DNA of 14,610 nt from Acidobacteriota bacterium (lineage in GTDB: Bacteria > Acidobacteriota > Terriglobia > Terriglobales > Acidobacteriaceae): contig JAJXXG010000700.1 in assembly GCA_021781255.1 (NCBI GenBank), positions 1 through 14,610 of the forward strand, written 5' to 3'. Position 1 is the stretch's first letter; every line of letters starts with the position of its first letter. A program made the translations under genes and the position numbers. This document shows positions 596 through 13,123 of this stretch, piece after piece. The notes below the pieces were generated by a model. The model worked only from the letters and a program-made list of their open reading frames with translations, was not told the DNA's origin and made no database searches.

Positions 596-1642
596 ATGAC
601 CGGGCTGAAGATGCGCAAACAGACACACCACAAAAATACTGCCGGATTCGCTGTTGCGTGTGCCGCTCTGGCGATCTGCGCGGCGACCGCCGCTCAGGCG
701 CCGGCCTCGCAATCCACTGCAACCGTTGCCGCCAGGCCCGCTGCGCCGGCGGCCGCGTCGGCTGCGGTTCCCTCGGTTCCTCAGGACAAGCCGCAAAAGG
801 GACAGGAATTGTTCGCCTCCCCACGCCGCGCGACTCTGGCACTGGACGCGGCGCTCGAGAAGAATGACACGGCCGAACTGCTGAAGGTGCTGGGCCCAGG
901 CGCGAAGGAGGTTCTCTGGTCTGGCGATGCAGCCGAGGACCGCGCCGCCATGGAGCAGTTTGTGAAGAAGTTTGCCGAGATGCATCGGCTGCAGATCGAG
1001 CCCGATGGATTTACGAGACTCTATGTGGGCGCGGAGAACTGGCCCTATCCGATTCCGCTGGCGCGCGCCGGGCTGATGTGGTTTTTCGACACAACGGCAG
1101 GCAAACAGGAGATACTGTATCGCCGCGTGGGTGAGAATGAGATCACGGTGATACAGGTATGCGGCGAGCTGGTTGCGGCGCAAAAGGAGTATTTCGCTCA
1201 ACCGCACGACGGAGCCAGGGCGGGCGAGTACGCACAGCGCATCCTGAGCAGCACTGGCAAGCACGACGGCCTCTACTGGCAGGTGAAGGCTGGCGATCCA
1301 TTGAGCCCGCTCGGTCCTTTTGTTGCCAAAGCTGAAACAGAAGGTTACACACAGGACGTAACGCAGCGCCCGGAGCCATTCCACGGCTACTTCTACCGCG
1401 TGTTGAGGGGCCAGGGACCGAATGCCCCCGGCGGCGCAAAACGCTATGTGCAAAATGGCCGGATGACAGGCGGCTTTGCGTTTCTGGCCTATCCGGCGGA
1501 GTACCGCTCGTCGGGCGTGATGACGTTCATGGTTGGCGCCGATGGCGTCGTTTACCAGAAGGATCTCGGGCCGAAGACGACGGAACTGGCGAAGGCCATC
1601 CGGCTCTACAATCGCGATGCAAGCTGGCAGAAGGCCGACTGA
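596..1642 (+). CDS. DUF2950 family exported protein
   Basis: This 348-residue protein has a hydrophobic signal segment (about residues 15-33, ending ATAAQA), a Pro/Ala-rich linker to about residue 65, then a full-length DUF2950 domain. Recognisable family stretches are the WPYPIPL block, WFFDTTAGKQEILYRRVGENE, IQVCGELVAAQKEY, YAQRILSSTGKHDGLYW, SPLGP, HGYFYRVL, GQGPNAPGGA, NGRMTGGFAFLAYPAEY and GVVYQKDLGP. The function of the family is unknown; an envelope location is predicted. I chose the ATG at 596 because GGAG (586-589) lies six bases upstream. The in-frame ATG at 590 abuts that same Shine-Dalgarno sequence. The gene follows the DUF3300-type gene in the same direction after 42 bp and is probably co-transcribed with it. 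The hairpin at 1685-1725 would end the transcript. Confidence 0.9.
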   Translation: MTGLKMRKQTHHKNTAGFAVACAALAICAATAAQAPASQSTATVAARPAAPAAASAAVPSVPQDKPQKGQELFASPRRATLALDAALEKNDTAELLKVLGPGAKEVLWSGDAAEDRAAMEQFVKKFAEMHRLQIEPDGFTRLYVGAENWPYPIPLARAGLMWFFDTTAGKQEILYRRVGENEITVIQVCGELVAAQKEYFAQPHDGARAGEYAQRILSSTGKHDGLYWQVKAGDPLSPLGPFVAKAETEGYTQDVTQRPEPFHGYFYRVLRGQGPNAPGGAKRYVQNGRMTGGFAFLAYPAEYRSSGVMTFMVGADGVVYQKDLGPKTTELAKAIRLYNRDASWQKAD

Positions 1643-1684
1643 GCCTCGCTGCCGGGTCTATCAACCCGACAAAAGCCGGAAGCG

Positions 1685-1725
1685 ACAAAAGCGGCTCATC
1701 CAACAAGTGAATGAGCCGCTTTTGT
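1685..1725. terminator. Bidirectional rho-independent terminator between convergent genes
   Basis: ACAAAAGCGGCTCAT (1685-1699) and ATGAGCCGCTTTTGT (1711-1725) are perfect reverse complements, giving a 15-bp stem with an 11-nt loop. The stem has a GC-rich core flanked by an A-run on one side and a T-run on the other, so it can act in both directions. It sits between the DUF2950 stop at 1642 and the YceI stop at 1757 and suits both converging transcripts. Confidence 0.9.
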
Positions 1726-1756
1726 GCAGAGCGGATCGAAAGATCGACTTCCCCGT

Positions 1757-2335
1757 TCAGCTTGCAGGATTGAGGCGGCCGGTGAGCGCCAGATCCACGT
1801 CCACGTCCTTGGCAACCTTGAGGATGAAGATGCTCGGATCCTTGAGGCCCCATTTCACATAGGGAACGGTGAAGTGCGCTTTCGCAGTGCATGTAGCGCC
1901 GTCTATGTGGATCTGCATGGGCACAGTGATGGTGTGCGGCGTGCCGTGGAGGGTGAAGACGCCGGTGACCTGAAGGTTGGAGTCGCCCGAAGCGAGGATG
2001 GTTCCCTGATAACTCTGCGGCGCAAAGGTCACATCGGCAAAGTGGGCGACGTCGAGCACCTCCGTGGTCATCTTGTGGTCGCGACTCTTGTTGCCGGTAT
2101 CGCCGCTGGCGGCTGAGACCACAATGGAGCCGGACATGCCGGGCATCGTGCGATCGAAATCCACCATCCCGCTTTGCACGTGGAAGACGCCGTGGGTTCC
2201 ATGATCGGCGCCGCCAAGAAAGAAGCTCACCTGGCTGGCGCCGGGATTGACGGTAAACGTCTGGTGCTGCGCAAAGACGCTGAAAGCAAAGGCAAGAGGA
2301 AGGATAGCAAGGGCGGCACGTGTAAGGGTCTTCAT
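1757..2335 (-). CDS. YceI-family periplasmic lipocalin-like protein
   Basis: This 192-residue protein has a Sec signal peptide (MKTLTRAALAILPLAFAFSVFAQ) followed by a single YceI domain. Typical features are the FTVNPGASQVSFFLGG opening, the GVFHVQSGMVDFD strand, DHKMTTEVLDVAHFADVTF, the LQVTGVFTLHGTPHTITVPM block and a C-terminal KDVDVDLALTGRL strand. Structurally characterised YceI proteins form a beta-barrel that binds polyisoprenoid chains, so the ligand here may be an isoprenoid quinone or prenyl lipid (inference). The start at 2335 has AGGAGA seven bases upstream and overlaps the preceding cytochrome-fusion stop by four bases (ATGA). A longer in-frame start would bury the signal peptide. 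It is the last gene of the seven-gene operon. Confidence 0.92.
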   Translation of the reverse strand: MKTLTRAALAILPLAFAFSVFAQHQTFTVNPGASQVSFFLGGADHGTHGVFHVQSGMVDFDRTMPGMSGSIVVSAASGDTGNKSRDHKMTTEVLDVAHFADVTFAPQSYQGTILASGDSNLQVTGVFTLHGTPHTITVPMQIHIDGATCTAKAHFTVPYVKWGLKDPSIFILKVAKDVDVDLALTGRLNPAS

Positions 2336-4263
2336 GGGTTTGTCTCCTGTATGAATTGGGATGCTATGGGTTGCGAGCTGGGCGTAGCGATCTTCTGCAT
2401 GAGCCAAAAACTGATGGAGGCAACCTGCCGGCCGGTCAGGTATTCATGACCGGGCATGTCGGTACCCGGCAAGCCGAAGCGGGTGATCTGCGCGATGCGT
2501 TCAAAACGCTCCTGGGGCATAGACGCGGGCGGAAGATAAAAGAATGGTCCCGTGGCAGGATTGGGGGGCAGGCGCTTGAAAGCGGACTTCCAGCGCCGGA
2601 GCGTTCGGCCGTCTGCACTGTGGCAGGTCGCGCAAAAGCGCGCATAGAGTTGCGCACCCTGTGCTGCGTCTGCTTCCTGCACATCGGTCGGGGATGGATA
2701 CCAGCTCTCTTCGTCGGAGACATGCTGCTGGACGCCGGGGCCGCGTAGGCTGGCGAGATAGGCAACGAGGTCGTCGCCCCGGCCGTCGCTAAAGAGAAAT
2801 GCATAGGATGGCATGATCGATGCACCGCTGACCTCCGGAGGATCGAAGAAGTGCATCTTGAGCCAGAGCGACGAACGGCGAGCGCCGACCTGGGAAAGGT
2901 CCGGCCCCTGGCGGCGGTTGCCGATGAGCGGCGGGTGCTGGAGGTGCACGGCATCAAGACTTTCAACCGGGCCCCACATCAGCACATCGGCCGTCTGAGG
3001 GCGAACGTACTGCGAGTGGCAATGGATGCAGCCCTCAGCGATATAGACCTGGCGGCCGCGCTCCGCGGGCGAGAGCTGCGTGGAGGGTTGGGGCTGCTGG
3101 ATGTGAGCGACCGCAAAGGCGACGACAAGAATGGCAGCGGTGAGTGCCAACTCGCGCGCGCGGCGCCGGGCAAGGGTCAGGAACGCGGGCGTAAGAACCA
3201 GCACTCCCGCAGCGGCAAGAAACAACGGCGGCACATGACCGAGGTTCTGGCCCATACCGATTCCGAGGGCGGAGCCGACCCACCCGGCGAGGGCGTAGAT
3301 CCAGCCGGCCTGGCGCGCTCGCTCCGCGAGGGATGCCGCGGGCGAAAGCAGAGATGGGTATGCCACCAGGGCAACCGAGTAGAGAGAGACGCCGACGGGA
3401 TAGAGAACAGAGGCCGGCAGCGTGCGGGCCGGGTCGAGCAGGAGCCAGCAGGCGCCAGCCAGAACAAGAAACGCCGCGGTCAGGACAAACAGCAGACCGC
3501 GACGGCCCAGCAGGATGGCACCAGCTACGGCGGCCGTCAGATGCAGGAGAGCATTGGTCCACAAGTGCGCGTTGCCTTGCCAGGTTCCCGCTTTCAGCGC
3601 AGGCGTGTGCTGGATGATGAAGAACGCGGCTGAATCCAGCCAGACGAGGGCGGCAAAACTCGCCACCACGAATGGGAAGAGCAGAGCCGCGCTGGCGCGG
3701 GAGTCCACCGGCGCGAACCGCGGCGGTGCGGCATCGACGGGCGCAAGCAGGATGCCCAGCAGGCAAAGCAGCGCGGCGGCGATGGAATGGACCTGGGGCG
3801 AGGCAGCGAAGAACCAGGGAACATTGCAGAGAAAATATCCGATTCCGGTGCCGAAGCCGACGGTGAGCAGAGGATTCCGCGTGCTGCACCACCCGGCCAG
3901 ATGTGTGACCAGCGTGACAGTGAGCAGGCCGAGACCGCAGCCGATGAGCAACGAGACTGCCACGGCTGCGACTGAGTTGAGCGGCAGCAGTGCCAGCAGA
4001 GCAGCGGCGCCGGAGACGCCAAAGCCCGCGCGCAGACGCAACTGCGCGGAAGGCCAGAGCGCGATGCGCGGTGCGAGCAGACTGAGCCCGACGCCGCCCA
4101 CAGCCATGGCAGCCATGACGGCTTTGAGTTGCGCGCCGGCGATGCCGAGCGCGGCCAGCCTGTTGAGGAATGCGAACTGGGCAAAGATGAGGAAGTACAC
4201 GTAGGTGATGGACACAAGACCCGCACCACGGACTCCTGCATTACCCTGTTTAGCAGTCGCCAT
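2332..4263 (-). CDS. Fusion protein: 12-TM MFS-like membrane domain plus CcoO-like and CcoP-like cytochrome c domains
   Basis: This is a 643-residue protein. Residues ~15-390 hold about 11-12 hydrophobic helices with an MFS-like layout, with a short polar break at about 175-190. Residues ~398-510 resemble CcoO/FixO: GRQVYIAEGCIHCHSQYVRP has the haem c motif C412-x-x-C415-H416, GPDLSQVG follows, and M484 in SIMPSYAFL is the likely axial ligand. Residues ~533-625 form a second cytochrome c domain with C544-A-T-C547-H548 and probable ligand M603 (GTDMPG), like a CcoP module. Both haem domains would face the periplasm. In ordinary cbb3 oxidases these modules sit in separate single-anchor subunits, so fusion to a polytopic transporter-like domain is unusual. 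The start at 4263 follows AGAGG and overlaps the upstream gene by 14 bp; in-frame ATGs further upstream lie inside that gene. The role is inferred to be electron transfer with the CcoN-like neighbour; a transport role for the N-terminal half is speculative. Confidence 0.85.
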   Translation of the reverse strand: MATAKQGNAGVRGAGLVSITYVYFLIFAQFAFLNRLAALGIAGAQLKAVMAAMAVGGVGLSLLAPRIALWPSAQLRLRAGFGVSGAAALLALLPLNSVAAVAVSLLIGCGLGLLTVTLVTHLAGWCSTRNPLLTVGFGTGIGYFLCNVPWFFAASPQVHSIAAALLCLLGILLAPVDAAPPRFAPVDSRASAALLFPFVVASFAALVWLDSAAFFIIQHTPALKAGTWQGNAHLWTNALLHLTAAVAGAILLGRRGLLFVLTAAFLVLAGACWLLLDPARTLPASVLYPVGVSLYSVALVAYPSLLSPAASLAERARQAGWIYALAGWVGSALGIGMGQNLGHVPPLFLAAAGVLVLTPAFLTLARRRARELALTAAILVVAFAVAHIQQPQPSTQLSPAERGRQVYIAEGCIHCHSQYVRPQTADVLMWGPVESLDAVHLQHPPLIGNRRQGPDLSQVGARRSSLWLKMHFFDPPEVSGASIMPSYAFLFSDGRGDDLVAYLASLRGPGVQQHVSDEESWYPSPTDVQEADAAQGAQLYARFCATCHSADGRTLRRWKSAFKRLPPNPATGPFFYLPPASMPQERFERIAQITRFGLPGTDMPGHEYLTGRQVASISFWLMQKIATPSSQPIASQFIQETNP

Positions 4264-4660
4264 GCAACAACCAGCCTCTGCGCAGACCTGCTGCCTGAAT
4301 CGTGACGCACGCGCCGTCGAACAATGCAATCGCAATCCAACCCGGCGCGAGAGCACCGGAAAGCACCGCAGCGCACACATAAACTGCGACTGAGCCGCGC
4401 AGGATGGCTGTGACGAGCCACAGGGCCTCAATCTTGGACGTGCAGCCGCCGCGGCGGACGAGCATGGCGCCGTAGAGATACGACAAGCCCACGGCCAGAA
4501 CTAAGGCCCCGATGAACGAGAGGAACGGCAGCGCATCGGCAGGCACGGCCAGATGCATGAGGCTCAGCGTGAAGACCGGCGCGGCCATCAACAGCGCGCC
4601 CGTGACGGTATCCGACATGCCTGCCACGACGTGATAACCAAGAAGGACTGGATGCTTCAT
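4250..4660 (-). CDS. Small polytopic membrane protein of unknown function
   Basis: This 136-residue protein has four predicted hydrophobic segments (about 16-35, 44-66, 79-101 and 103-124) and a short cytosolic-type loop RRGGCTSK near residue 70. I do not recognise the family. The start has AGGAGA eight bases upstream and overlaps the CcoN-like stop by four bases (ATGA at 4657-4660). Its 3' end overlaps the cytochrome-fusion gene by 14 bp. This placement between two cbb3-like subunits suggests an accessory or assembly subunit of the same complex (inference). No haem-binding CxxCH motif is present. Confidence 0.8.
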   Translation of the reverse strand: MKHPVLLGYHVVAGMSDTVTGALLMAAPVFTLSLMHLAVPADALPFLSFIGALVLAVGLSYLYGAMLVRRGGCTSKIEALWLVTAILRGSVAVYVCAAVLSGALAPGWIAIALFDGACVTIQAAGLRRGWLLHGDC

Positions 4661-5988
4661 GCAACTTTCTCCTGTGGAACCTTAGTGCGCGCGGGGTCCA
4701 GCTCGCCAAGCAAAACAAAGGCGTCGCGGAACCACTCCAGGGATGCCGCCAGCATCAAGATGCCCGTGAGAAGTCGAAGGATGTAAAGAAGATTGCGCGC
4801 CGGTCCGGGCACGATCGTGAAAGCAGGGTTGGAGCCTTCCAACCATCCCGCAGCGGTGATGACAACGACATATGCGAGCACTCCCCAGTTCCACAGGTGG
4901 AACGACCAGGATCGCGTGAAGATCCAGCCGCCCTCGCCCAGCAACTGAACCATCACCAGGATGATGAGCGCGGAGAGAAACCCGGCTATGGCGGTGAAGG
5001 AATGGCCCACCAGGCCGTCGGTGAACTTGAAGTGATCGAGCACGCCGGGCAGGAACAGGACCCATCCGGAGACAACCAGCAGGCCCCACCACCAGAGCAT
5101 CGCCTTGCGCCATGCGCGCGTGTTTGCGTGCCACTCGAAAGCCGCATAGTAGGCCGGCGTAAGCGGCAGCCAAAGGACCATTGCGCCCAGGCTCATGAAT
5201 TGCGATGGGATGCGATGGCTGATGTCAGCTCGGCTGAGACCGGCGCAGAGCAGGCTCTCGGCCAGCAGCAGCAGCCATGCGATGCGAACGGCCGAAGCCG
5301 GCGCCGCATTGCGCCGCGTAATGCCGTAGGGAACGATGAGCAGAATCAGCACGACCGCAAGCGAGGACTCAAGCTGGCTGGTGCCTGTAGGGCCGCCGGT
5401 GTCTGGGTTCACGGCGGGATAGATGCCGGGACTGGATGCGATGTAGAGCGCAACTGGCACGGTGAGCAGGATGAGCAGGCCAAGGAATTTTGCGACGCGG
5501 GCTTTCGGATTGCTTTCACCGCCAGCTTGCGATGGACGAAAAAAAGCAATGGCAAGCAGCAGCCACAAGGCAAAAGCCGCCAGCGGAAATGCGATTCGAG
5601 CGGGGCCTGACCAGTCAAGAAAGAGCTTGCCGCTGCTGTGACCCGCAAGCCACATGAGCGCGCCGAGGCCGAGCGCCGCGGACCACCCCCAGAGCACCGG
5701 CCTGCACCATGCGGTGGCTGAGCCGCGGTCCGCACAGTACACATGAAAGAGAAAGCCGAGCATGGGCATGCTGCTCCAGCCATAGAGCATGACGTTCATA
5801 TGCACCATCATCCAGCGACCGTAGGTCCACTCGCCGAGCCAGGCATTCAGCGAGGGCAGCAGAAGCAGGATGGCAAGCAGGACGCCGATGGCGTTGCCCA
5901 GAACAAGCCAGAACAGGCCATGCCACGCGGCGTAAGCGACGGCCGGAGATTTCTGCGCCGAAGCGTCACTCGCGGGATAAGGGCTCAT
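4657..5988 (-). CDS. Divergent CcoN-like (cbb3-type subunit I fold) membrane protein lacking CuB ligands
   Basis: This 443-residue protein is numbered from the ATG at 5988 and has about 12 TM helices. Resemblance to CcoN is seen in the helix II-like block WMMVHMNVMLYGWSSMPMLG (H63), the YPAVN stretch before helix VI, CAG..SHRIPSQF..LGAMVLWLPL (helix VII/VIII style) and KFTDGLVGHSFTAIAGF. That last block matches the TDWTIGHVH helix of cbb3 oxidases, with H329 kept and the second His replaced by F331. No histidine occurs between residues 117 and 258, so the helix VI CuB histidine is absent. The HH pair of helix VII aligns with S252-R253, and the cross-linking Tyr with a Leu. It may bind haem b but is unlikely to reduce oxygen. 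The start is uncertain: ATGs at 6003, 6000 and 5988 all lack a clear Shine-Dalgarno sequence, and all overlap the ATPase gene. Confidence 0.8.
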   Translation of the reverse strand: MSPYPASDASAQKSPAVAYAAWHGLFWLVLGNAIGVLLAILLLLPSLNAWLGEWTYGRWMMVHMNVMLYGWSSMPMLGFLFHVYCADRGSATAWCRPVLWGWSAALGLGALMWLAGHSSGKLFLDWSGPARIAFPLAAFALWLLLAIAFFRPSQAGGESNPKARVAKFLGLLILLTVPVALYIASSPGIYPAVNPDTGGPTGTSQLESSLAVVLILLIVPYGITRRNAAPASAVRIAWLLLLAESLLCAGLSRADISHRIPSQFMSLGAMVLWLPLTPAYYAAFEWHANTRAWRKAMLWWWGLLVVSGWVLFLPGVLDHFKFTDGLVGHSFTAIAGFLSALIILVMVQLLGEGGWIFTRSWSFHLWNWGVLAYVVVITAAGWLEGSNPAFTIVPGPARNLLYILRLLTGILMLAASLEWFRDAFVLLGELDPARTKVPQEKVA

Positions 5989-6676
5989 GGATTCGTCCAT
6001 CATGCATTTCAAGGAGGCGATCGCAGCGCTGCGCCAGCGCGCGGTCATGCGTGGCCATCAACAAGGTTACGCCTTCAGTGGCGGCCAGATCGAGCAGCAG
6101 ATCAAAGACCGTTGCGCTGGTTTCTTCATCGAGCGATCCTGTGGGTTCATCTGCCAGCAGAATCTTCGGACGGTTCATCAGAGCGCGGCAGAGAGCTGTG
6201 CGCTGGCGCTCGCCGCCGGAGAGCTTCTGAATGCGGTGACCAAGGCGGTGGCGCAGGCCGGTTCGCTCAGTAAGCTGCTGCAGCCTTTCGCGCGCCGCAC
6301 GGCGATCGGTGCCCGCGGCCACGCAGGGAATCATGCAGTTCTCTTCGAGCGTGAGATCGGGGATGAGGTTATGCAGTTGAAACACAAAGCCGACCTCGTG
6401 CCGCAGAAGACGAAGCAGGTCGCGCCGGCGATTAACCTCCGAGCCATTCACGGATACGTGGCCGCGGTCTGGCGCATCGAGGCCGCCGAACAGGTGCAGC
6501 AGCGTGCTTTTGCCGCAACCGGATGGGCCGCAAAGCGCAATGGTCTGGCCTTGCAGGACATCGAAGCTAACGCCTTTTAGCACGGTGATGGCGCCATCGT
6601 CATAGCTCTTCCATAAGTCCTGCGCGTGCAGTACGACGCTGCTTGTGGGACTGGCTGGATTGTCGGGCGTAGTCAT
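5966..6676 (-). CDS. ABC transporter ATP-binding protein, LolD/MacB type
   Basis: This 236-residue ATPase has all core motifs: Walker A GPSGCGKST (50-58), Q-loop Q100 in FVFQLHNLIPDLT, signature LSGGE (152-156), Walker B ILLADE (172-177) followed by PTGSLDEET, and switch H210 in MATHD. The FQLHNLIPDLT and DEPTGSLD patterns are typical of the lipoprotein-release/macrolide-export (LolD, MacB, FtsE-like) branch. It would power the FtsX-type permease encoded just upstream, and the ATGA overlap at 6673-6676 supports a coupled pair. Its 3' end overlaps the CcoN-like gene by 23 bp or more. The substrate is unknown. Such transporters often act as mechanical or periplasmic-substrate exporters rather than classical importers. 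Confidence 0.92.
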   Translation of the reverse strand: MTTPDNPASPTSSVVLHAQDLWKSYDDGAITVLKGVSFDVLQGQTIALCGPSGCGKSTLLHLFGGLDAPDRGHVSVNGSEVNRRRDLLRLLRHEVGFVFQLHNLIPDLTLEENCMIPCVAAGTDRRAARERLQQLTERTGLRHRLGHRIQKLSGGERQRTALCRALMNRPKILLADEPTGSLDEETSATVFDLLLDLAATEGVTLLMATHDRALAQRCDRLLEMHDGRIHEPLSRE

Positions 6677-7782
6677 TCGAAGCGCAGCGCCTCCACCGCA
6701 CGAATCCGCATGGCGTAGATCGCCGGATAAAGCGCGCCCGCCACGCCGGTGACGAGCGCGAGAAGGATGACGATCAGCAGAACGGCAAGGCGGATGGAGA
6801 CATCAATATAGCCGTCGAGCGCGGGGATGAGCTTGAGTCCGAACAGTGCCACGATGCCGACTGCGAGGCCGCACAGCGCGCCAACAAGGGAGACCAGCGC
6901 GGACTCGCCGAAGATCATGCTCGCGATCTGTGTATTGGAGAAGCCATTCACGCGGAGGATGGCGATCTCGCGAATGCGCGTGAAGACCGACATGATCATG
7001 GTGTTGGCCACTCCCAGACCGCCGAGCAGCAGGCCGCACCCTCCCACAGCCCATGCCGTGGCTTTGAGGATCTTGAATTGCGAATAGGAACGCGTAAACT
7101 CAGCATCCTCAAGACCGATGAGATTGGGGAACTGCTGCTTCACCCTCGCTTTGAATGCGTCGGCGTCTCCGCCGGAACGCAGCTTGATAGTGAGAACGGA
7201 AGAGCCGTCCTTGTGGAAGAAGCGCTGCGCCGAGGCGATCGGCATGAAGACGCCCCCGTCTTCAAATCCGTTGGCGGTCTTGAGCACGCCAATGACGCGA
7301 AAGACGCCGTGGCCGATCGGGACTTCGCTGCCGACGTTCGCATGGAGAAAATCCGCGGCGCGCGCGCCCAGGACCACGTCATCGTCGTGGATGCCGAAGT
7401 CGCTGCGATTGCCCGCAATCCACGAGGCTTTGCGGATGCGCGCATCTTGCGCCGTAACGCCGAAGCAAGTGATGATGGGATGATCTGCGCTGGAGACAAT
7501 GCCGAAGAGAACCGGGTCGGCATGAGCAACGAGAGGCCACTTCGCGATCTGTTCCGCCGCAGTTTGCGAGACTGTGCTGAAGAAGAGGTCTGAGACATTG
7601 CGCTCGAAGACGATGAGCTGGCTGTCGCTCGATAGAATCCCGGAGAACATGCCGATCGCGCCCTGCAGAATGGTGACAACCGTGATCATGGCCGCCACGC
7701 TGAACGCAATGCCGGCGATGCTGATGAAGGTTCGGATGCGATGGCGCTGAAGATTTGTCAGGATCAGGCGCAGGAAGATCAT
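6673..7782 (-). CDS. ABC transporter permease, MacB/FtsX family
   Basis: This 369-residue protein has the MacB layout. TM1 is at about 18-41 (IRTFISIAGIAFSVAAMITV) and is followed by a ~200-residue periplasmic MacB_PCD-like domain. A C-terminal FtsX domain spans about 245-365 with three helices and the conserved stretch NTMIMSVFTRIREIAILRVNGFS. It ends with YPAIYAMRIRAVEALRFE, the usual P-A-x-x-A-x-R-x-x-P/A-x-E-A-L-R ending. I chose the ATG at 7782 because it gives an exact ATGA overlap with the prenyl synthase stop; an in-frame ATG at 7809 would add nine residues. The partner is the ATPase downstream. No membrane-fusion protein or outer-membrane factor gene is present in the window, so the export path is incomplete as seen. 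Confidence 0.9.
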   Translation of the reverse strand: MIFLRLILTNLQRHRIRTFISIAGIAFSVAAMITVVTILQGAIGMFSGILSSDSQLIVFERNVSDLFFSTVSQTAAEQIAKWPLVAHADPVLFGIVSSADHPIITCFGVTAQDARIRKASWIAGNRSDFGIHDDDVVLGARAADFLHANVGSEVPIGHGVFRVIGVLKTANGFEDGGVFMPIASAQRFFHKDGSSVLTIKLRSGGDADAFKARVKQQFPNLIGLEDAEFTRSYSQFKILKATAWAVGGCGLLLGGLGVANTMIMSVFTRIREIAILRVNGFSNTQIASMIFGESALVSLVGALCGLAVGIVALFGLKLIPALDGYIDVSIRLAVLLIVILLALVTGVAGALYPAIYAMRIRAVEALRFE

Positions 7783-8732
7783 GACTCCGCTTTCAGAGTC
7801 ATCTCGCAAGCACTCTCTGTCACGCGGCTCAGCTCATCCTGCAGATCGCTGCGCAGTTTTCCCAGGAACTCGATGCCGGGCCTCGTGCGGAGCAGGCGCT
7901 TCAACGTGTGATCGCCAAGCCGGATGAGGCGGTTCAGGCGCTCCACAGCATTGGGTATGCCGATGGCCGTGGCCATGTTGGGGCGGTCGAGGAGGATATC
8001 TCGCGCCACGGACTTGCCGGTCTCAGCTACGCTTTGTAGCACATCTTTCAGGTCATCGACAATCTGATACCCGAGCCCCCAGCAGGCAGCGATGCGCTCA
8101 AGCTGCCGCACCTCGCGCTCAGGCGCGCCGGCCAGCAGAGCCGGCAGCACAAGCGTAAGGCGGATGAGCGAGACAGTCTTGCCATGCGCGATGCGCTCAG
8201 TGGTCTCGCGCGTGTGCGGCAGCGTGGCATAGTGCAGGTCGAGGCTTTGCCCGTTCAGCAGGCCTTCCACCCCGAGGCGCTTTTCCAGATACTCCATGAC
8301 CTGCGGCTGTGTCGCCGGGGGAGAGCCTGCCAGCGCTTGCCAGATGAGCGCATACGCGCGGTTGATGAGGGCGAGCGCGGAAAGAATTGCGCCCGGCTCG
8401 CTGAACGCTACATGGACACAGGGAGCGCTGCGCCGGTGCGTGGCATCGTCCATGCAGGGCAGGTCGTCAAAGATCAATGAGGCCGTATGAAAGTATTCGA
8501 GTGCAATGGCAAGCCGATTGGCGCGCGCGGGCTCCAAGCCATAAGCCGCAGCCAACTGCAGCACCATGCGCGGGCGAACGAGACTGCCGGGATTCTCCAG
8601 CACATGGCAAAGGGCCGCCTCGAAGTGTGGATCGAGACCGGCCGGCACAGGCAACAAAGCGCGAAAATCTTCCGCCAGTTGCGTAGTATTCAGTTCATCC
8701 AGGCCAAATTCCGCCGGCACATTTAACCTCAT
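7779..8732 (-). CDS. Polyprenyl (E-isoprenyl) diphosphate synthase, IspA/GGPP-synthase-like
   Basis: This 317-residue enzyme would condense isopentenyl diphosphate with allylic diphosphates. The first Asp-rich motif is DDLPCMDD (89-96), followed by RR (100-101). The second is DDLKD (226-230) within GYQIVDDLKDVL, then TGKSVARDI. The substrate-binding HGKTVSLIRL block (183-192) is also present. The N-terminal GKxxRP motif is altered to GSLVRP, with the lysine missing. The bulky F87 just before the first motif may influence chain length, but product length (C15, C20 or longer) cannot be read with confidence. The start at 8732 (MRLNVPAEFG) matches the family length; the ATG at 8852 would add 40 atypical residues. 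No clear Shine-Dalgarno sequence precedes 8732. It is the first gene of the operon and could supply the prenyl chain used by the downstream proteins (inference). Confidence 0.88.
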   Translation of the reverse strand: MRLNVPAEFGLDELNTTQLAEDFRALLPVPAGLDPHFEAALCHVLENPGSLVRPRMVLQLAAAYGLEPARANRLAIALEYFHTASLIFDDLPCMDDATHRRSAPCVHVAFSEPGAILSALALINRAYALIWQALAGSPPATQPQVMEYLEKRLGVEGLLNGQSLDLHYATLPHTRETTERIAHGKTVSLIRLTLVLPALLAGAPEREVRQLERIAACWGLGYQIVDDLKDVLQSVAETGKSVARDILLDRPNMATAIGIPNAVERLNRLIRLGDHTLKRLLRTRPGIEFLGKLRSDLQDELSRVTESACEMTLKAES

Positions 8733-9003
8733 GATGGGGTGATGAATTTCAAAAGGCCTCTCGCGCAGGGAATCCTGCTGCGAGGTCAACGAGATACCAA
8801 CCAGCAACACGCACCCTTTTAGACGCAGCTCAAGCGCGACGGGAGACAGCAACAGGGCTGAAAACGGATGACAATTTGTTCATTCTTTCGAAATCAGGCG
8901 CGCCGGAAGGACTCCGCAGCAGGGCATGAAGTTACCGGTGCAACACGAGGTTGGATCGGCATCGGCTCGTTCATGACGACAACTTAATCTAGCCTGCGAA
9001 TGC

Positions 9004-9034
9004 CTTGGATCGCGCCAGAAATGTCTGGTCCAAG
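9004..9034. promoter_or_regulatory. Interrupted inverted repeat upstream of the response regulator
   Basis: CTTGGA (9004-9009) and CCAGA (9015-9019) pair with TCTGG (9024-9028) and TCCAAG (9029-9034). The result is an 11-bp stem with a 5-nt one-sided bulge (TCGCG) and an AATG loop. It could be an mRNA leader hairpin or a DNA operator. Confidence 0.45.
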
Positions 9035-9040
9035 CAGCGC

Positions 9041-9060
9041 CTGCCTGCACCTGCCTGCAT
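9041..9060 (+). promoter_or_regulatory. Tandem decamer CTGCCTGCAC/CTGCCTGCAT, possible response-regulator site
   Basis: Two copies of CTGCCTGCA sit exactly 10 bp apart, 16 bp before the response-regulator start. OmpR/PhoB-family regulators typically bind direct repeats with 10-11-bp spacing, so this could be an autoregulatory site. Binding is an inference from spacing alone. Confidence 0.4.
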
Positions 9061-9076
9061 CGACTAATATCCTTTC

Positions 9077-9754
9077 ATGCGGCTTCTTCTGGTGGAAGAT
9101 GAACTCGATATTCAGACGTTCCTGCGGAATTCTCTGGAAGAAGCGGGTTACGGCGTGGATGTGGCGGGCAACGCTGCGCAGGCAGAGGATATGGCTACGC
9201 AGTCGGCGCACGACATTCTAATTGTGGACCTTGGGCTGCCGGACAGGGACGGCATCAGCCTGATTCTGCGGCTGCGTGAGATGGGAATTTCCGCGCCTGT
9301 GCTGATCCTTTCCGCACGGCGCTCGGTGGATGATCGGGTGCGCGGGCTGGAGCAGGGCGGCGACGACTACCTGACGAAGCCCTTTGCCCTGGCGGAACTG
9401 CTGGCGCGGCTGCGCAATCTGCTGAAGCGCAACAGCCCGGCAGCCGGCGAGGCAACACGGCTGCGGGTGCAGGATCTTGAGTTGGACCTGCTGCGACGCG
9501 AAGCGACGCGCGGCGGACTCGTGCTGCAATTGACGCCGCAGGAGTTTGTGCTGCTGGAGTATCTGTGCAGAAACGCGGGGCGCGTGGTCACACGCTCCAT
9601 GATTCTGGACAAGGTGTGGGGTATGCGCATTCAGCCGGATACAAACGTCGTGGACGTGCATATTTACAGGCTGCGCGGCAAGGTGGATGGGAAAGGGCAG
9701 CAGCCGCTGATCCGCACGCTGCGAGGTGTGGGCTATGTCCTCAAAGACCGTTAA
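9077..9754 (+). CDS. OmpR/PhoB-family response regulator
   Basis: This 225-residue protein has an N-terminal receiver domain (1-115) with acidic pocket E7-D8, phospho-acceptor D51 in ILIVDLGLPDRDG, S79 in LILSARRS and K101 in DDYLTKPFALAELLAR. A winged-helix DNA-binding domain (about 127-223) carries LTPQEFVLLEYLCRNAGRVVTR, the NVVDVHIYRLRGKVD recognition region and the C-terminal RTLRGVGYVL hairpin. It acts in the cytoplasm as a transcription factor activated by its cognate kinase, which overlaps its 3' end. The GLPDRDG and VTRSMILDKVWG patterns recall the CusR/CopR/QseB branch, but the signal cannot be assigned. No clear Shine-Dalgarno sequence precedes the ATG. It is divergent from the seven-gene operon and is a candidate regulator of it. 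Confidence 0.93.
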   Translation: MRLLLVEDELDIQTFLRNSLEEAGYGVDVAGNAAQAEDMATQSAHDILIVDLGLPDRDGISLILRLREMGISAPVLILSARRSVDDRVRGLEQGGDDYLTKPFALAELLARLRNLLKRNSPAAGEATRLRVQDLELDLLRREATRGGLVLQLTPQEFVLLEYLCRNAGRVVTRSMILDKVWGMRIQPDTNVVDVHIYRLRGKVDGKGQQPLIRTLRGVGYVLKDR

Positions 9755-11219
9755 TCCGGTGATGCATTCGGCGGCATGGCGTATCTCGCTGTGGGCGACG
9801 CTGGCCTTTGCCTGCGGCACCATGCTGGTCTTTATTTTTCTCCATCGTTTCGTCTCCAGCGACATCCGGCAGCGCACGAATGCATGGCTGGCAGGCGAAG
9901 TGGAGGTACTGGGCGATGTAGCCGAGCACACGCCGAAGGATGCTCTCTACGACAGGGTGGTAAGCGAAGTGGCGGAGCTGGCGGGCAAGGAAGTGCCCAA
10001 CCGGCTGCGCTCCGAAGGCCACACAAACGATCTTGTCTTTTTTCTGCAAACCGCCGGAGATGGGGCCCAGACGCTGTGGGTGGGCGCCGGAAGCGGAGAA
10101 CCTTACCTGAACGCGATCCGGAAGCAGCCATTTCCGCCGGATGAACCGCAAGACGTGCGCGTAGCCGGCTCGGCGATTCCTTTTCGCGTGGTGGCATTGC
10201 AGATTGACGATGGCAGCCGGATCTACCTGGGTCTCTCTGAGCGCGACGAGCTGCGTGTGCTGCGCAACCTGCGTTTCCGCTTCATCATGCTGTGGTTGCT
10301 GCTGGTGCTGCTGGGCTTTGCCATTGTCTTCTACACCGCGCGCCGCATGTTGAGCCACGTCCGCGATATTACGGAGGCCGCATCGCGCATCGGCCACTCC
10401 GACCTGAATGCGCGCGTGCCCATGAGCGCCCGGAATGATGAGGTGGCGCACCTGGCGCGTACGCTGAACCGCATGTTGGATCGTATTGAAAGCTCGATGC
10501 ACCAGTTGCACACCATTACCGATGCGCTCGCGCACGACCTGCGCAGTCCGATGACTGCGATTCGCGGCAAGCTTGAGATGTCTCTCTCTGCCGCAAGACA
10601 CGGCGAACAGGCCGAACCGATCGTCGCAGCCATTGAGGAACTGGACCGGCTGACGGAGTTCCTCAATACTTCGCTCGACGTGGCCGAGGGCAAGGCGGAT
10701 GCGCTGCGCCTATCGCGGAGCGAGATTGACCTGGATGAGTTGCTCCACGTGATGGTGGATCTCTATGAGCCTTCGATGAGCGAGAAGAATATGCATGTGA
10801 CGCTGCAAAGCCAGGGGCCGGTCAGGATTCAGGCCGATGCGGCACTGATGCACCGTATGATCTCAAACCTTTTTGATAATGAGTTGAAGCATGTGCCGTC
10901 CGGATGCTCGATCCGTTTGAGCCTTACCGTCGAAGAAGACGCGGCAAAGCTGACGGTAGAGGATGACGGGCCGGGTTTTGCGCCGGAGGTTCTGCCGCAT
11001 CTGTTTGAACAGCGGGTGAAGGGCAGACAATCCAGCGGGCACGGGCTGGGGCTGGCCTTTGTCGAGGCTGTGGCCCGGGCACACCGAGGAGGCGTTGTTG
11101 CATCGAATCATGAAGGCGGGGGCGCGCGGCTTACGTTGACCCTTCCGCTTGGCCGGGTGATCGATTCATCTCTTCCAATCGAGATGACTGTCTCGGGCGC
11201 CGGGCCGAACCATCGGTGA
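9735..11219 (+). CDS. Membrane sensor histidine kinase (HAMP, HisKA, HATPase_c)
   Basis: This 494-residue kinase has TM1 (about 17-38), a ~145-residue periplasmic sensor region, TM2 (about 182-201) and a HAMP linker (about 202-255, ending DEVAHLARTLNRMLDRIE). The HisKA helix carries H267 in LAHDLRSPMTAIRG. The ATPase domain has N-box NLFDNELKH (378-386), G1 VEDDGPGF (408-415) and G2 SGHGLGLAFVEAV (434-446). N-box and G-box residues look intact, so it should be active. The periplasmic domain has no obvious metal-binding cluster. I chose the ATG at 9735 because GAGG lies seven bases upstream; it overlaps the regulator gene by 20 bp. In-frame ATGs at 9726 and 9762 are alternatives. It would phosphorylate the upstream response regulator. 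Confidence 0.92.
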   Translation: MSSKTVNPVMHSAAWRISLWATLAFACGTMLVFIFLHRFVSSDIRQRTNAWLAGEVEVLGDVAEHTPKDALYDRVVSEVAELAGKEVPNRLRSEGHTNDLVFFLQTAGDGAQTLWVGAGSGEPYLNAIRKQPFPPDEPQDVRVAGSAIPFRVVALQIDDGSRIYLGLSERDELRVLRNLRFRFIMLWLLLVLLGFAIVFYTARRMLSHVRDITEAASRIGHSDLNARVPMSARNDEVAHLARTLNRMLDRIESSMHQLHTITDALAHDLRSPMTAIRGKLEMSLSAARHGEQAEPIVAAIEELDRLTEFLNTSLDVAEGKADALRLSRSEIDLDELLHVMVDLYEPSMSEKNMHVTLQSQGPVRIQADAALMHRMISNLFDNELKHVPSGCSIRLSLTVEEDAAKLTVEDDGPGFAPEVLPHLFEQRVKGRQSSGHGLGLAFVEAVARAHRGGVVASNHEGGGARLTLTLPLGRVIDSSLPIEMTVSGAGPNHR

Positions 11220-11276
11220 CAAACCAAACGGCCATATTGGATTGAATTGCAACTGGGCAAGCAAGCAGCAGGGTTT

Positions 11277-11289
11277 GTGTGCAGCACAC
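11277..11289. promoter_or_regulatory. 13-bp perfect palindrome (GTGTGC-A-GCACAC) before pgl
   Basis: The two 6-bp arms are perfect reverse complements around a single base, too close to form an RNA hairpin loop. It lies just ahead of the GGAGG ribosome site of pgl, in the 90-bp gap after the kinase gene. A DNA operator is possible; chance cannot be excluded. Confidence 0.3.
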
Positions 11290-11309
11290 CCCCGGAGGGA
11301 AAGATCTCG

Positions 11310-12107
11310 ATGGGAAGTAGACTCAAAGTCACGTATTGCATTGAGCCGGACGCCGCGTCGCTGGCGCGGCGTGCCGTAGAGCATCTGGTTGCGCAGGCTA
11401 AGGCGGCCATTGCCGCGCGCGGCCGTGCGCGGATCGCGATCAGCGGCGGCTCCACGCCCAAGGCGGCCTTTCAGCTGCTGGCGGACCCCAAGCAGATCTG
11501 GCGTCACGCCATGCCGTGGGACAAACTTGATATTTACTGGGTCGACGAGCGCTGCGTTCCTCCCGACCATCCCGACAGCAACTACTGCATGACCCGTGAG
11601 ACTCTGCTGAACTATGTGCCGCTCAAGGCTGAGCAGATCCATCGCATGGAAGGCGAACTCGATCCGCAGGTGGCCTCTTCGCGCTACGAGTCCATGCTGC
11701 GGGATACGTTTCGGCTGGAAGGCGCGGAGAGCCCGCGCTTCGACGTGATTGCGCTGGGCATGGGCGGCGATGGCCACACCGCATCCTTGTTTCCCTACTC
11801 GGCGGCCGTGCATGAGATGGGGCGGTTGGTGACCGCCAACCACGTTGAAAACAAAGATGCCTGGCGGATTACCCTGACATGGCCGGTGATCAACCACGCG
11901 GACTCAGTCTTCTTCCTGATTGGCGGAGCGGACAAGGCGGCCCGGATTCACGAGGTCTTTATGGGGCCGCGCGATCCGGAGCGCCTTCCCAGTCAACTGA
12001 TTTGGCCCTCAGGCGGTATACTCACACTGATTCTGGATAAGGCCGCTGCTGCGCTTCTGCCCGCAACCGATGGGGAAGGCTGCGGGGTTCTGGAGATGGA
12101 ACGATGA
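11310..12107 (+). CDS. pgl: 6-phosphogluconolactonase
   Basis: This 265-residue enzyme of the DevB/SOL family hydrolyses 6-phosphogluconolactone to 6-phosphogluconate in the oxidative pentose-phosphate and Entner-Doudoroff routes. Family motifs are [11 protein letters not shown] (44-54), [18 protein letters not shown] (75-92) and the signature [18 protein letters not shown] (145-162), in which H156 corresponds to the catalytic histidine region. [12 protein letters not shown] and GGADKA follow near the C-terminus. The start at 11310 has GGAGG 11 bases upstream. The longer in-frame ATG at 11247 would add a 21-residue extension without family similarity. Its stop overlaps the glk start by four bases (ATGA), so the two genes form a glucose-phosphorylation and lactone-hydrolysis operon. 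Confidence 0.95.
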
Positions 12108-13123
12108 TTCTGGCAGGGGACGTGGGCGGCACCAAGGTCTATCTGGCGCTGTATGACTTTGTCGATGGGAAGCTTAAATACACCCGCGAAGAGCGCTATC
12201 CGGCCAAGAACTACACCGGGCTGGAAGAGATCGTTAAAGAGTTCCTGAGCGCGGACAAAGTGACGGCGGCGTGTTTTGGCGTGCCCGGCCCGGTACGCGA
12301 CGGCCGCCTGCGCCTGACCAACCTGCCCTGGACGCTGGACAACCGCGAACTCTCAGCCAACCTCGGCATCCAGCATGTCTTTCTTATCAATGACTTGGAG
12401 GCCAACGGCTACGGCATTGCCGAGCTGTCGCCAGACCAGATCTACACGCTGAGCGAGGGCGACCCTGGCCAGATTGGCAACCGCGCACTGGTCGCCGCCG
12501 GCACAGGCCTGGGCGAGTGTTTCCTGGCCTGGAACGGGCACCACCACCTGCCGTTTCCCTCCGAAGGCGGCCACTCCGACTACGCACCGCGCAATGAGGA
12601 CGAGATCGACCTGCTGCGCTTCCTCAAGCAGAAGTACAACGGGCGCATCAGCTTTGAGCGTGTCGTCAGCGGCATGGGCCTGACCAATATCTATGAGTTT
12701 CTGCGCGAGGTGCGGGGGCTGGATGAACCGAACTGGCTGGCCGCGCGCATCGCCTCTGAAGACCCCAACGCTGTCATCACGGAAGTGGCGCTGGCCGCCA
12801 AAAGCGAAATCTGCGAGAAGGCGCTGGACATGTTCGTCTCCGCCTATGGGGCGGAGGCAGGCAACCTGGCGCTGAAGATTCTGTCTGTCGGCGGCCTTTA
12901 CGTGGGCGGCGGTATCGCGCCGCGCATCCTGGAGAGGCTGAAGGATGGCCTCTTCATGAAGGCCTTTACCGACAAAGGCCGCCTGAGCCAGCTACTGGTC
13001 AACATGCCGGTACGCATCATTCTGGAAAGCCGCGCCGCGCTGATGGGCGCGGCGGCCTACGCAGAAGCACGCGCTGCGGAGATCAGCGGCGTCTCCGCAA
13101 GGGCCGCGTCCATGAGCCACTAG
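12104..13123 (+). CDS. glk: Glucokinase (Glk family, proteobacterial type)
   Basis: This 339-residue cytoplasmic enzyme would phosphorylate glucose with ATP. Landmarks are the N-terminal phosphate-binding loop GDVGGTK (5-11), GVPGPV (59-64) and LTNLPW. The catalytic block is LINDLEANGYG (94-104) with D97 as the likely base. AAGTGLGE (131-138), EGGHSDYAPR (154-163, with E154 and H157 as sugar contacts) and the C-terminal VGGLYVGGGIAPR adenosine motif follow. The E-G-G-H-x-D-Y-A-P-R signature places it in the Glk (PF02685-type) family rather than ROK kinases. The start is fixed by the 4-bp overlap with pgl. No strong terminator is visible in the 38 bp before the convergent neighbour's stop. Confidence 0.95.
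   Translation: MILAGDVGGTKVYLALYDFVDGKLKYTREERYPAKNYTGLEEIVKEFLSADKVTAACFGVPGPVRDGRLRLTNLPWTLDNRELSANLGIQHVFLINDLEANGYGIAELSPDQIYTLSEGDPGQIGNRALVAAGTGLGECFLAWNGHHHLPFPSEGGHSDYAPRNEDEIDLLRFLKQKYNGRISFERVVSGMGLTNIYEFLREVRGLDEPNWLAARIASEDPNAVITEVALAAKSEICEKALDMFVSAYGAEAGNLALKILSVGGLYVGGGIAPRILERLKDGLFMKAFTDKGRLSQLLVNMPVRIILESRAALMGAAAYAEARAAEISGVSARAASMSH

Follow-up and report, generated by a model that had tools for sequence, protein, structure and literature searches.

The window analysed here is a 14,610-nucleotide stretch of DNA (contig JAJXXG010000700.1, assembly GCA_021781255.1) from a member of the Acidobacteriaceae. It contains seven genes that lie together on the minus strand, from position 8732 down to 1757. 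They encode a polyprenyl diphosphate synthase (PPS), the permease and ATPase of an ATP-binding cassette (ABC) exporter, a CcoN-like membrane protein, a small membrane protein with about four transmembrane (TM) segments (4-TM), a fusion of a major facilitator superfamily (MFS)-like domain with two cytochrome c domains, and a YceI-family lipocalin (Table 1). Successive genes overlap by 4, 4, 23, 4, 14 and 4 bp, which confirms the original prediction of a seven-gene, same-strand overlapping operon; its additional claim that such packing implies stoichiometric co-production was not supported. No description of this gene combination was found in the titles and opening abstract lines of the open-licence papers listed by the searches. 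Within that literature, the combination is new, as is a CcoN-like subunit without a complete copper B (CuB) site.

Table 1. Genes of the cluster and adjoining features in the window.
Feature	Position	Strand	Evidence and remarks
Polyprenyl (E-isoprenyl) diphosphate synthase (PPS)	7779..8732	-	PF00348, E-value 3.8e-39
ABC permease, MacB_PCD + FtsX, LolC/E-like below cut-off	6673..7782	-	Family searches; kept in near loci, not core
ABC ATPase, LolD/YbbA models nearest, below their cut-offs	5966..6676	-	TIGR02211, E-value 1.8e-66; not core
CcoN-like membrane protein	4657..5988	-	Haem-copper subunit I fold; GHN ligand of CuB absent
Small membrane protein with some four TM segments (by eye), conserved core member	4250..4660	-	Alignment of 16 sequences
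Fusion of MFS-like domain, CcoO/FixO-like monohaem domain (CIHCH) and CcoP-like monohaem domain (CATCH)	2332..4263	-	Family searches, alignment
YceI-family lipocalin, probable N-terminal signal peptide (by eye)	1757..2335	-	PF04264, E-value 2.2e-20
OmpR-type response regulator, CopR/CusR-like, divergent from operon	9077..9754	+	Family search; part of conserved neighbourhood
Sensor histidine kinase, CopS/CusS-like, overlapping regulator gene	9726..11219	+	Family search
Divergent intergenic region, presumed site of both promoters	8733..9076	.	Position between divergent genes

The fold of the CcoN-like protein is that of subunit I in the haem-copper superfamily; the protein has no Pfam match of its own. 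The CuB ligands of the Pseudomonas stutzeri cbb3 oxidase are His207, His257 and His258, as given in a portion of PMC3578206. The GHN motif, which provides the CuB ligand of TM6, was found in none of 20 aligned copies of the CcoN-like family, against 7 of 8 references, and was also absent from 25 near sequences and three Verrucomicrobiota proteins. The HH pair corresponds in the alignment to two of three CuB ligands and occurs in all 8 references, 10 of the 20 aligned copies, 21 of the 25 near sequences and 11 of the 21 sequences of the tree set. SHH occurs in 19 of the 25 near sequences, and the window has SHR in its place; residues 255–259 of the predicted structure show low predicted local distance difference test (pLDDT) values. 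Because GHN is missing in all aligned copies and HH is missing in the window, O2 reduction is improbable and, as judged from its sequence, the CcoN-like protein probably does not perform it. The tree sets the CcoN-like family apart from true CcoN (support 0.907), but identities are low and the tree is given no weight here.

We take the haem ligands of subunit I to be the His of TM2 and the HxH of TM10. Distant and Verrucomicrobiota copies keep all three His wherever their sequence spans the positions, and the window clade keeps only His63 of TM2 and His329, the first of TM10. His23, His63 and His329 are invariant in the 25 near copies. Haem content may differ between clades, the window clade having Phe or Leu at the second His of TM10 with the rest of its cluster intact. 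Additionally, in the nearest genome (G001; L and G numbers are our handles for loci and genomes), a separate open reading frame of 872 amino acids at L126 combines a CcoN-like part (IHDAVG, GIHHY, GHSHLAM) with three CxxCH motifs, a count made by eye.

Among the other core proteins, the PPS carries two Asp-rich motifs (DDLPCMDD and DDLKD in the window), both kept in 24 of 24 copies. It is the third or fourth PPS in all five cluster-bearing genomes tested; the counts per genome were three in G001, G003, G019 and G337, four in G372, and two in G006, G032 and G033. The fusion protein matched FixO (E-value 8.9e-29) and Cytochrom_C (4.5e-12), with monohaem domains of CcoO and CcoP type. Two CxxCH motifs are present in 25 of 26 aligned fusions (the window and 25 loci), and the FixO-like core is highly conserved. 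The fusion of L053 (6890–8563) has the CcoO-like haem only, its second haem domain being absent. A profile comparison of the MFS-like domain with PDB gave no match, and a structure prediction of the fusion from its single sequence (pLDDT 40.6) was not used. The window copy of the 4-TM protein matched no Pfam family and gave single-member matches only. The PDB relatives of YceI are 5ixg, 5ixh and 1y0g. In the ABC pair, the ATPase scored 223.8 bits against the LolD model (cut-off 307.75) and the permease 82.7 bits against the LolCE model (cut-off 362.45). A candidate role in anti-phage defence was rejected: PADLOC, run on six of the seven proteins, matched the ABC ATPase with ATPase-type models only, and the permease weakly with LolE-TM.

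Conservation was followed among near relatives, of which the closest (G001) shares 77% of sampled words with the window. The named relatives are Acidobacteriota, some of them "Terracidiphilus" (now filed under Occallatibacter, class Terriglobia). A search for the CcoN-like protein was positive in 17 of 60 relatives, the copy of G033 being a fragment and that of G018 lacking an inner part. The genus sample comprises 36 genomes, many of them incomplete, and 16 of these hold more than a remnant of the cluster. For the comparison of loci we used 22 near loci with long flanks, picked for having the CcoN-like gene; short loci were excluded, together with L064 and L068, which lie on the same contigs as L024 and L027. 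All seven genes are present in 21 of the 22, and 19 of these 21 keep the gene order of the window; in L056 and L057 the seven genes are present with yceI upstream and divergent. L019 is close to the window (CcoN-like proteins 98% identical). In the short-flank loci of G005, G011, G034 and G036, the permease, ATPase, CcoN-like, 4-TM and fusion genes stand in order within the flanks. The original prediction had proposed that the seven genes would co-occur in order in other genomes, and this was borne out in the near loci, so that the outcome it had named as speaking against the unit, a lack of conservation beyond this strain, did not arise.

One near locus, L060 (G033, contig C128, 2027–5939), is a decayed remnant that retains the two-component genes, yceI, the 4-TM gene and the last part of the CcoN-like gene, and in which the PPS, ABC and fusion genes and most of the CcoN-like gene were not found. 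The yceI gene of this remnant may serve a use of its own. In L069 (9467–10587), the CcoN-like gene consists of two matching pieces with about 100 residues absent between them, through either an assembly fault or a real deletion.

A CcoN-like profile, built from the window and 24 of at least 120 listed matches, gave matches in 16 of 399 genomes at class level and in 11 of 396 at phylum level. Four of the phylum matches, with E-values of 1e-84 to 1e-97, are distant members of the CcoN-like family. Six weak profile matches (1e-5 to 1e-8) were rejected, their translations being true CcoN with GHN and HH (L121 and L041 are one gene). A fusion protein query, run against the class to which one distant member belongs, matched 12 of 147 genomes, the query's own genome counted. 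Furthermore, the members listed from a profile search of 5.8 billion proteins include Lacunisphaera, Opitutaceae and Opitutales, all Verrucomicrobiota.

The distant set comprised 15 loci from 14 Acidobacteriota genomes, in which contig ends hide some genes. The core in these genomes consists of the PPS, CcoN-like, 4-TM, fusion and YceI genes, without the ABC genes, and the order is YceI, PPS, CcoN-like, 4-TM and fusion, followed by a metallo-beta-lactamase (MBL) hydrolase (8 of 14 genomes) and a resistance-nodulation-division (RND) transporter (14 of 14, counting two contigs of G872 together). Where the contig extends far enough, the CcoN-like gene is preceded by PPS in 10 of 10 loci and by YceI in 8 of 8. 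Of the 13 loci covering the interval, 9 have a recognisable 4-TM gene, and L096 adds a weak tenth. The window-type permease was found in none of the 15 loci, and the sole match to the ATPase (31%) lies in L051, about 4.5 kb from yceI. For the RND transporter of L051, the one scanned against NCBIfam, the HpnN and BstA models were nearest, with a score below their cut-offs. A search for the RND transporter in seven near genomes was empty, this search having had no positive control. MBL-hydrolase matches were also observed near the near-type clusters L026, L055 and L057, a possible link between the two arrangements.

Genes of quinone type stand beside the distant core. An isochorismate synthase was identified in 3 of the 14 genomes (L053, L094 and L097, one family), and the L053 copy, the only one scanned against families, passes its cut-off. 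A UbiA prenyltransferase is present in 3 (L093 and L095 by Pfam, L100 by tblastn), those of L093 and L095 scoring above the cut-off of a UbiA-like model and well below that of MqnP; paralogue counts of UbiA were uninformative. A UbiE-like methyltransferase (Ubie_methyltran, Pfam) was identified in 4 (L052, L054, L093 and L096), and at least one of the three genes occurs in 9 of the 14. A gene without a Pfam match separates the RND/UbiA genes from the UbiE-like gene in distant clusters (L093, 5708–6919; L096, 13502–14638).

We give an even chance to the reading that the cluster is a dedicated envelope module that would make, move and redox-cycle an isoprenoid lipid of quinone type. The extra PPS would make the prenyl tail, and in distant copies the isochorismate synthase, UbiA and UbiE-like proteins suggest head-group synthesis, prenylation and methylation. 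The lipid would then leave the inner membrane by the ABC exporter in the window, or elsewhere by an RND pump of the HpnN/BstA kind; lipid movement appears to be part of the function, since one group has an ABC exporter and the other an RND pump, which where tested is of the isoprenoid kind. Judging from its family, YceI may carry the lipid within the periplasm. The CcoN-like protein, by its aligned ligands, would be a b-haem electron-transfer subunit and not an oxidase, linking the quinone pool, or the lipid on YceI, to the two c haems of the fusion by electron exchange in one direction or the other. The MFS-like domain and the 4-TM protein may anchor the complex or bind lipid, and the divergent CopRS-type two-component system probably regulates the cluster. 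A bolder and more doubtful proposal, which we put forward tentatively, is that a haem-copper subunit I has turned into an O2-independent quinone:cytochrome c electron-transfer protein and that, with the fusion, the lipocalin and a lipid pump, it forms an undescribed machine that would supply the periplasm or outer membrane with isoprenoid quinol and cycle its redox state there.

The isoprenoid (quinone-like) theme of the original prediction thus gains support from the isochorismate synthase, UbiA, UbiE-like and RND genes beside the distant core, a support that does not extend to its notion of one functional complex. Overall, that interpretation held in part; it had missed the loss of GHN from the CcoN-like subunit, the replaceable ABC pair and the divergent two-component system. 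Several observations weigh against the module proposed here. All 8 members of the window clade examined carry Phe or Leu in place of the second TM10 His, taken as the ligand of the low-spin haem, which leaves the haem content of this clade uncertain, and the HH pair occurs in so many copies that a remnant metal site is possible. The PPS lacks the GGKRVR motif of its PDB relatives 3kra and 5e8h, with PGSLVR in the window and similar sequences in other copies; a motif of the GGKR type presumably takes part in isopentenyl diphosphate binding. The three methyltransferases tested with NCBIfam missed the UbiE cut-offs by a wide margin and scored about equally against a model of a corrinoid-associated methyltransferase. 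No match to isochorismate synthase, UbiA or the UbiE-like protein was found within the flanks of the 22 near loci or in 5 of the 14 distant genomes, where some contigs end early. Finally, positions 1500–9300 hold 12 terminator-like sites where 6.8 are expected (standard deviation 2.9), 11 of them on the operon strand.

Three other explanations were weighed. Cytochromes that modify a specialised, non-quinone isoprenoid lipid, such as an antimicrobial or outer-membrane lipid, within a cluster for its biosynthesis and export, would fit the extra PPS, the MacB/LolD-like exporter in place of the RND transporter, the MBL hydrolase of the distant genomes and the patchy distribution. We consider this unlikely: isochorismate synthase, UbiA and YceI all indicate quinones, and no terpene cyclase or P450 was found among 17 scanned proteins of the distant loci. 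The quinone-type genes of the distant copies, together with b-haem ligands (by alignment) and two c haems in one unit, would suit a main-chain quinol:cytochrome c oxidoreductase that replaces bc1 or alternative complex III, with YceI and the lipid genes only supplying a special quinone. A patchy presence in the genus sample would be odd for an essential complex, however, and family searches found no Rieske protein among the seven, so that we hold this possibility to be about as unlikely.

Least probable, by a small margin, is a divergent, working cbb3-type terminal oxidase (or nitric oxide reductase) encoded with its assembly and cofactor genes, in which the MFS-like domain would import copper or a cofactor as CcoA does for cbb3. 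This explanation was given slightly more weight because HH proved common in near copies. Against it stand the consistent absence of GHN from TM6 in the aligned, near and Verrucomicrobiota copies and the SHR of the window; furthermore, all nine genomes tested (eight with the cluster, and G362) also hold a COX1-type subunit above the PF00115 cut-off.

The closest described system is BcnA–LcoA, in which a YceI lipocalin (BcnA) is encoded with a membrane cytochrome b561 (LcoA); an isoprenoid quinone is the likely ligand, and quenching of lipid peroxyl radicals has been proposed for the lipocalin in its quinone-loaded form (PMC9113575, in part). By analogy, the cluster would most likely serve to hold a pool of isoprenoid quinol in the envelope in its reduced state, for use as an antioxidant or an electron relay. 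The cluster differs in having a CcoN-like protein without GHN and a CcoO/CcoP-like fusion instead of b561, for which family searches gave no match among the seven proteins, and in adding a prenyl synthase and a lipid transporter. It resembles BcnA–LcoA without being a member, because its cytochrome is not b561. We take YceI–YceJ of Escherichia coli to be the counterpart of BcnA–LcoA.

With the cbb3 oxidase (CcoN, CcoO, CcoP) the cluster shares the subunit I fold and the CcoO-like and CcoP-like haem c domains; it differs in the lack of a complete canonical CuB site, in the fusion of these domains to an MFS-like one and in the lipid genes of the operon. Parts of PMC9599518 and PMC5900883 report cbb3 oxidases in some Acidobacteriota genomes; these may or may not correspond to the CcoN-like protein. 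The HpnN/BstA transporters of isoprenoid lipids (hopanoids or sterols) provide the nearest models for the L051 RND protein, although that protein falls below their cut-offs and the window has an ABC exporter instead. LolCDE/MacB exporters likewise combine a MacB_PCD + FtsX permease with a LolD-like ATPase, whereas the pair in the window has a single permease, stays below the Lol cut-offs and is absent from distant clusters.

Divergent two-component genes were observed beside the cluster in 17 of 20 judgeable near loci, in L057 with yceI in between. They are not beside it in L026, L055 and L056; L019, which ends early, and the remnant L060 stand outside this count. A simple sigma-70 scan of 1500–9300 detected no promoter within 8733–9076 and one site in all, against a shuffle mean of 1.5. 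RNA families and tRNAs were not detected in the window. At 11247–13123, 3' of the kinase, lie a 6-phosphogluconolactonase gene and a glucokinase-like gene (the latter labelled by eye); in L059, L060, L062 and L063 both are likewise next to the two-component genes. Convergent with the operon are a glycine-rich open frame (26–553) and a DUF2950 protein gene (590–1642, E-value 6.1e-101); among the 22 near loci, L019 alone shows DUF2950 at this place.

The Joint Genome Institute (JGI) annotation of the CcoN-like protein as cbb3 oxidase subunit 1 could lead to soil Acidobacteriota being wrongly credited with high-affinity O2 respiration. The protein is a case of a haem-copper subunit that has lost part of its CuB site, and as such bears on the evolution of the superfamily. 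To our knowledge, the route by which isoprenoid quinones leave the inner membrane and the use that YceI lipocalins make of them are an open question. With genes for putative tail synthesis, lipid export, a carrier and electron transfer brought together at a single locus, the cluster would make this question testable.

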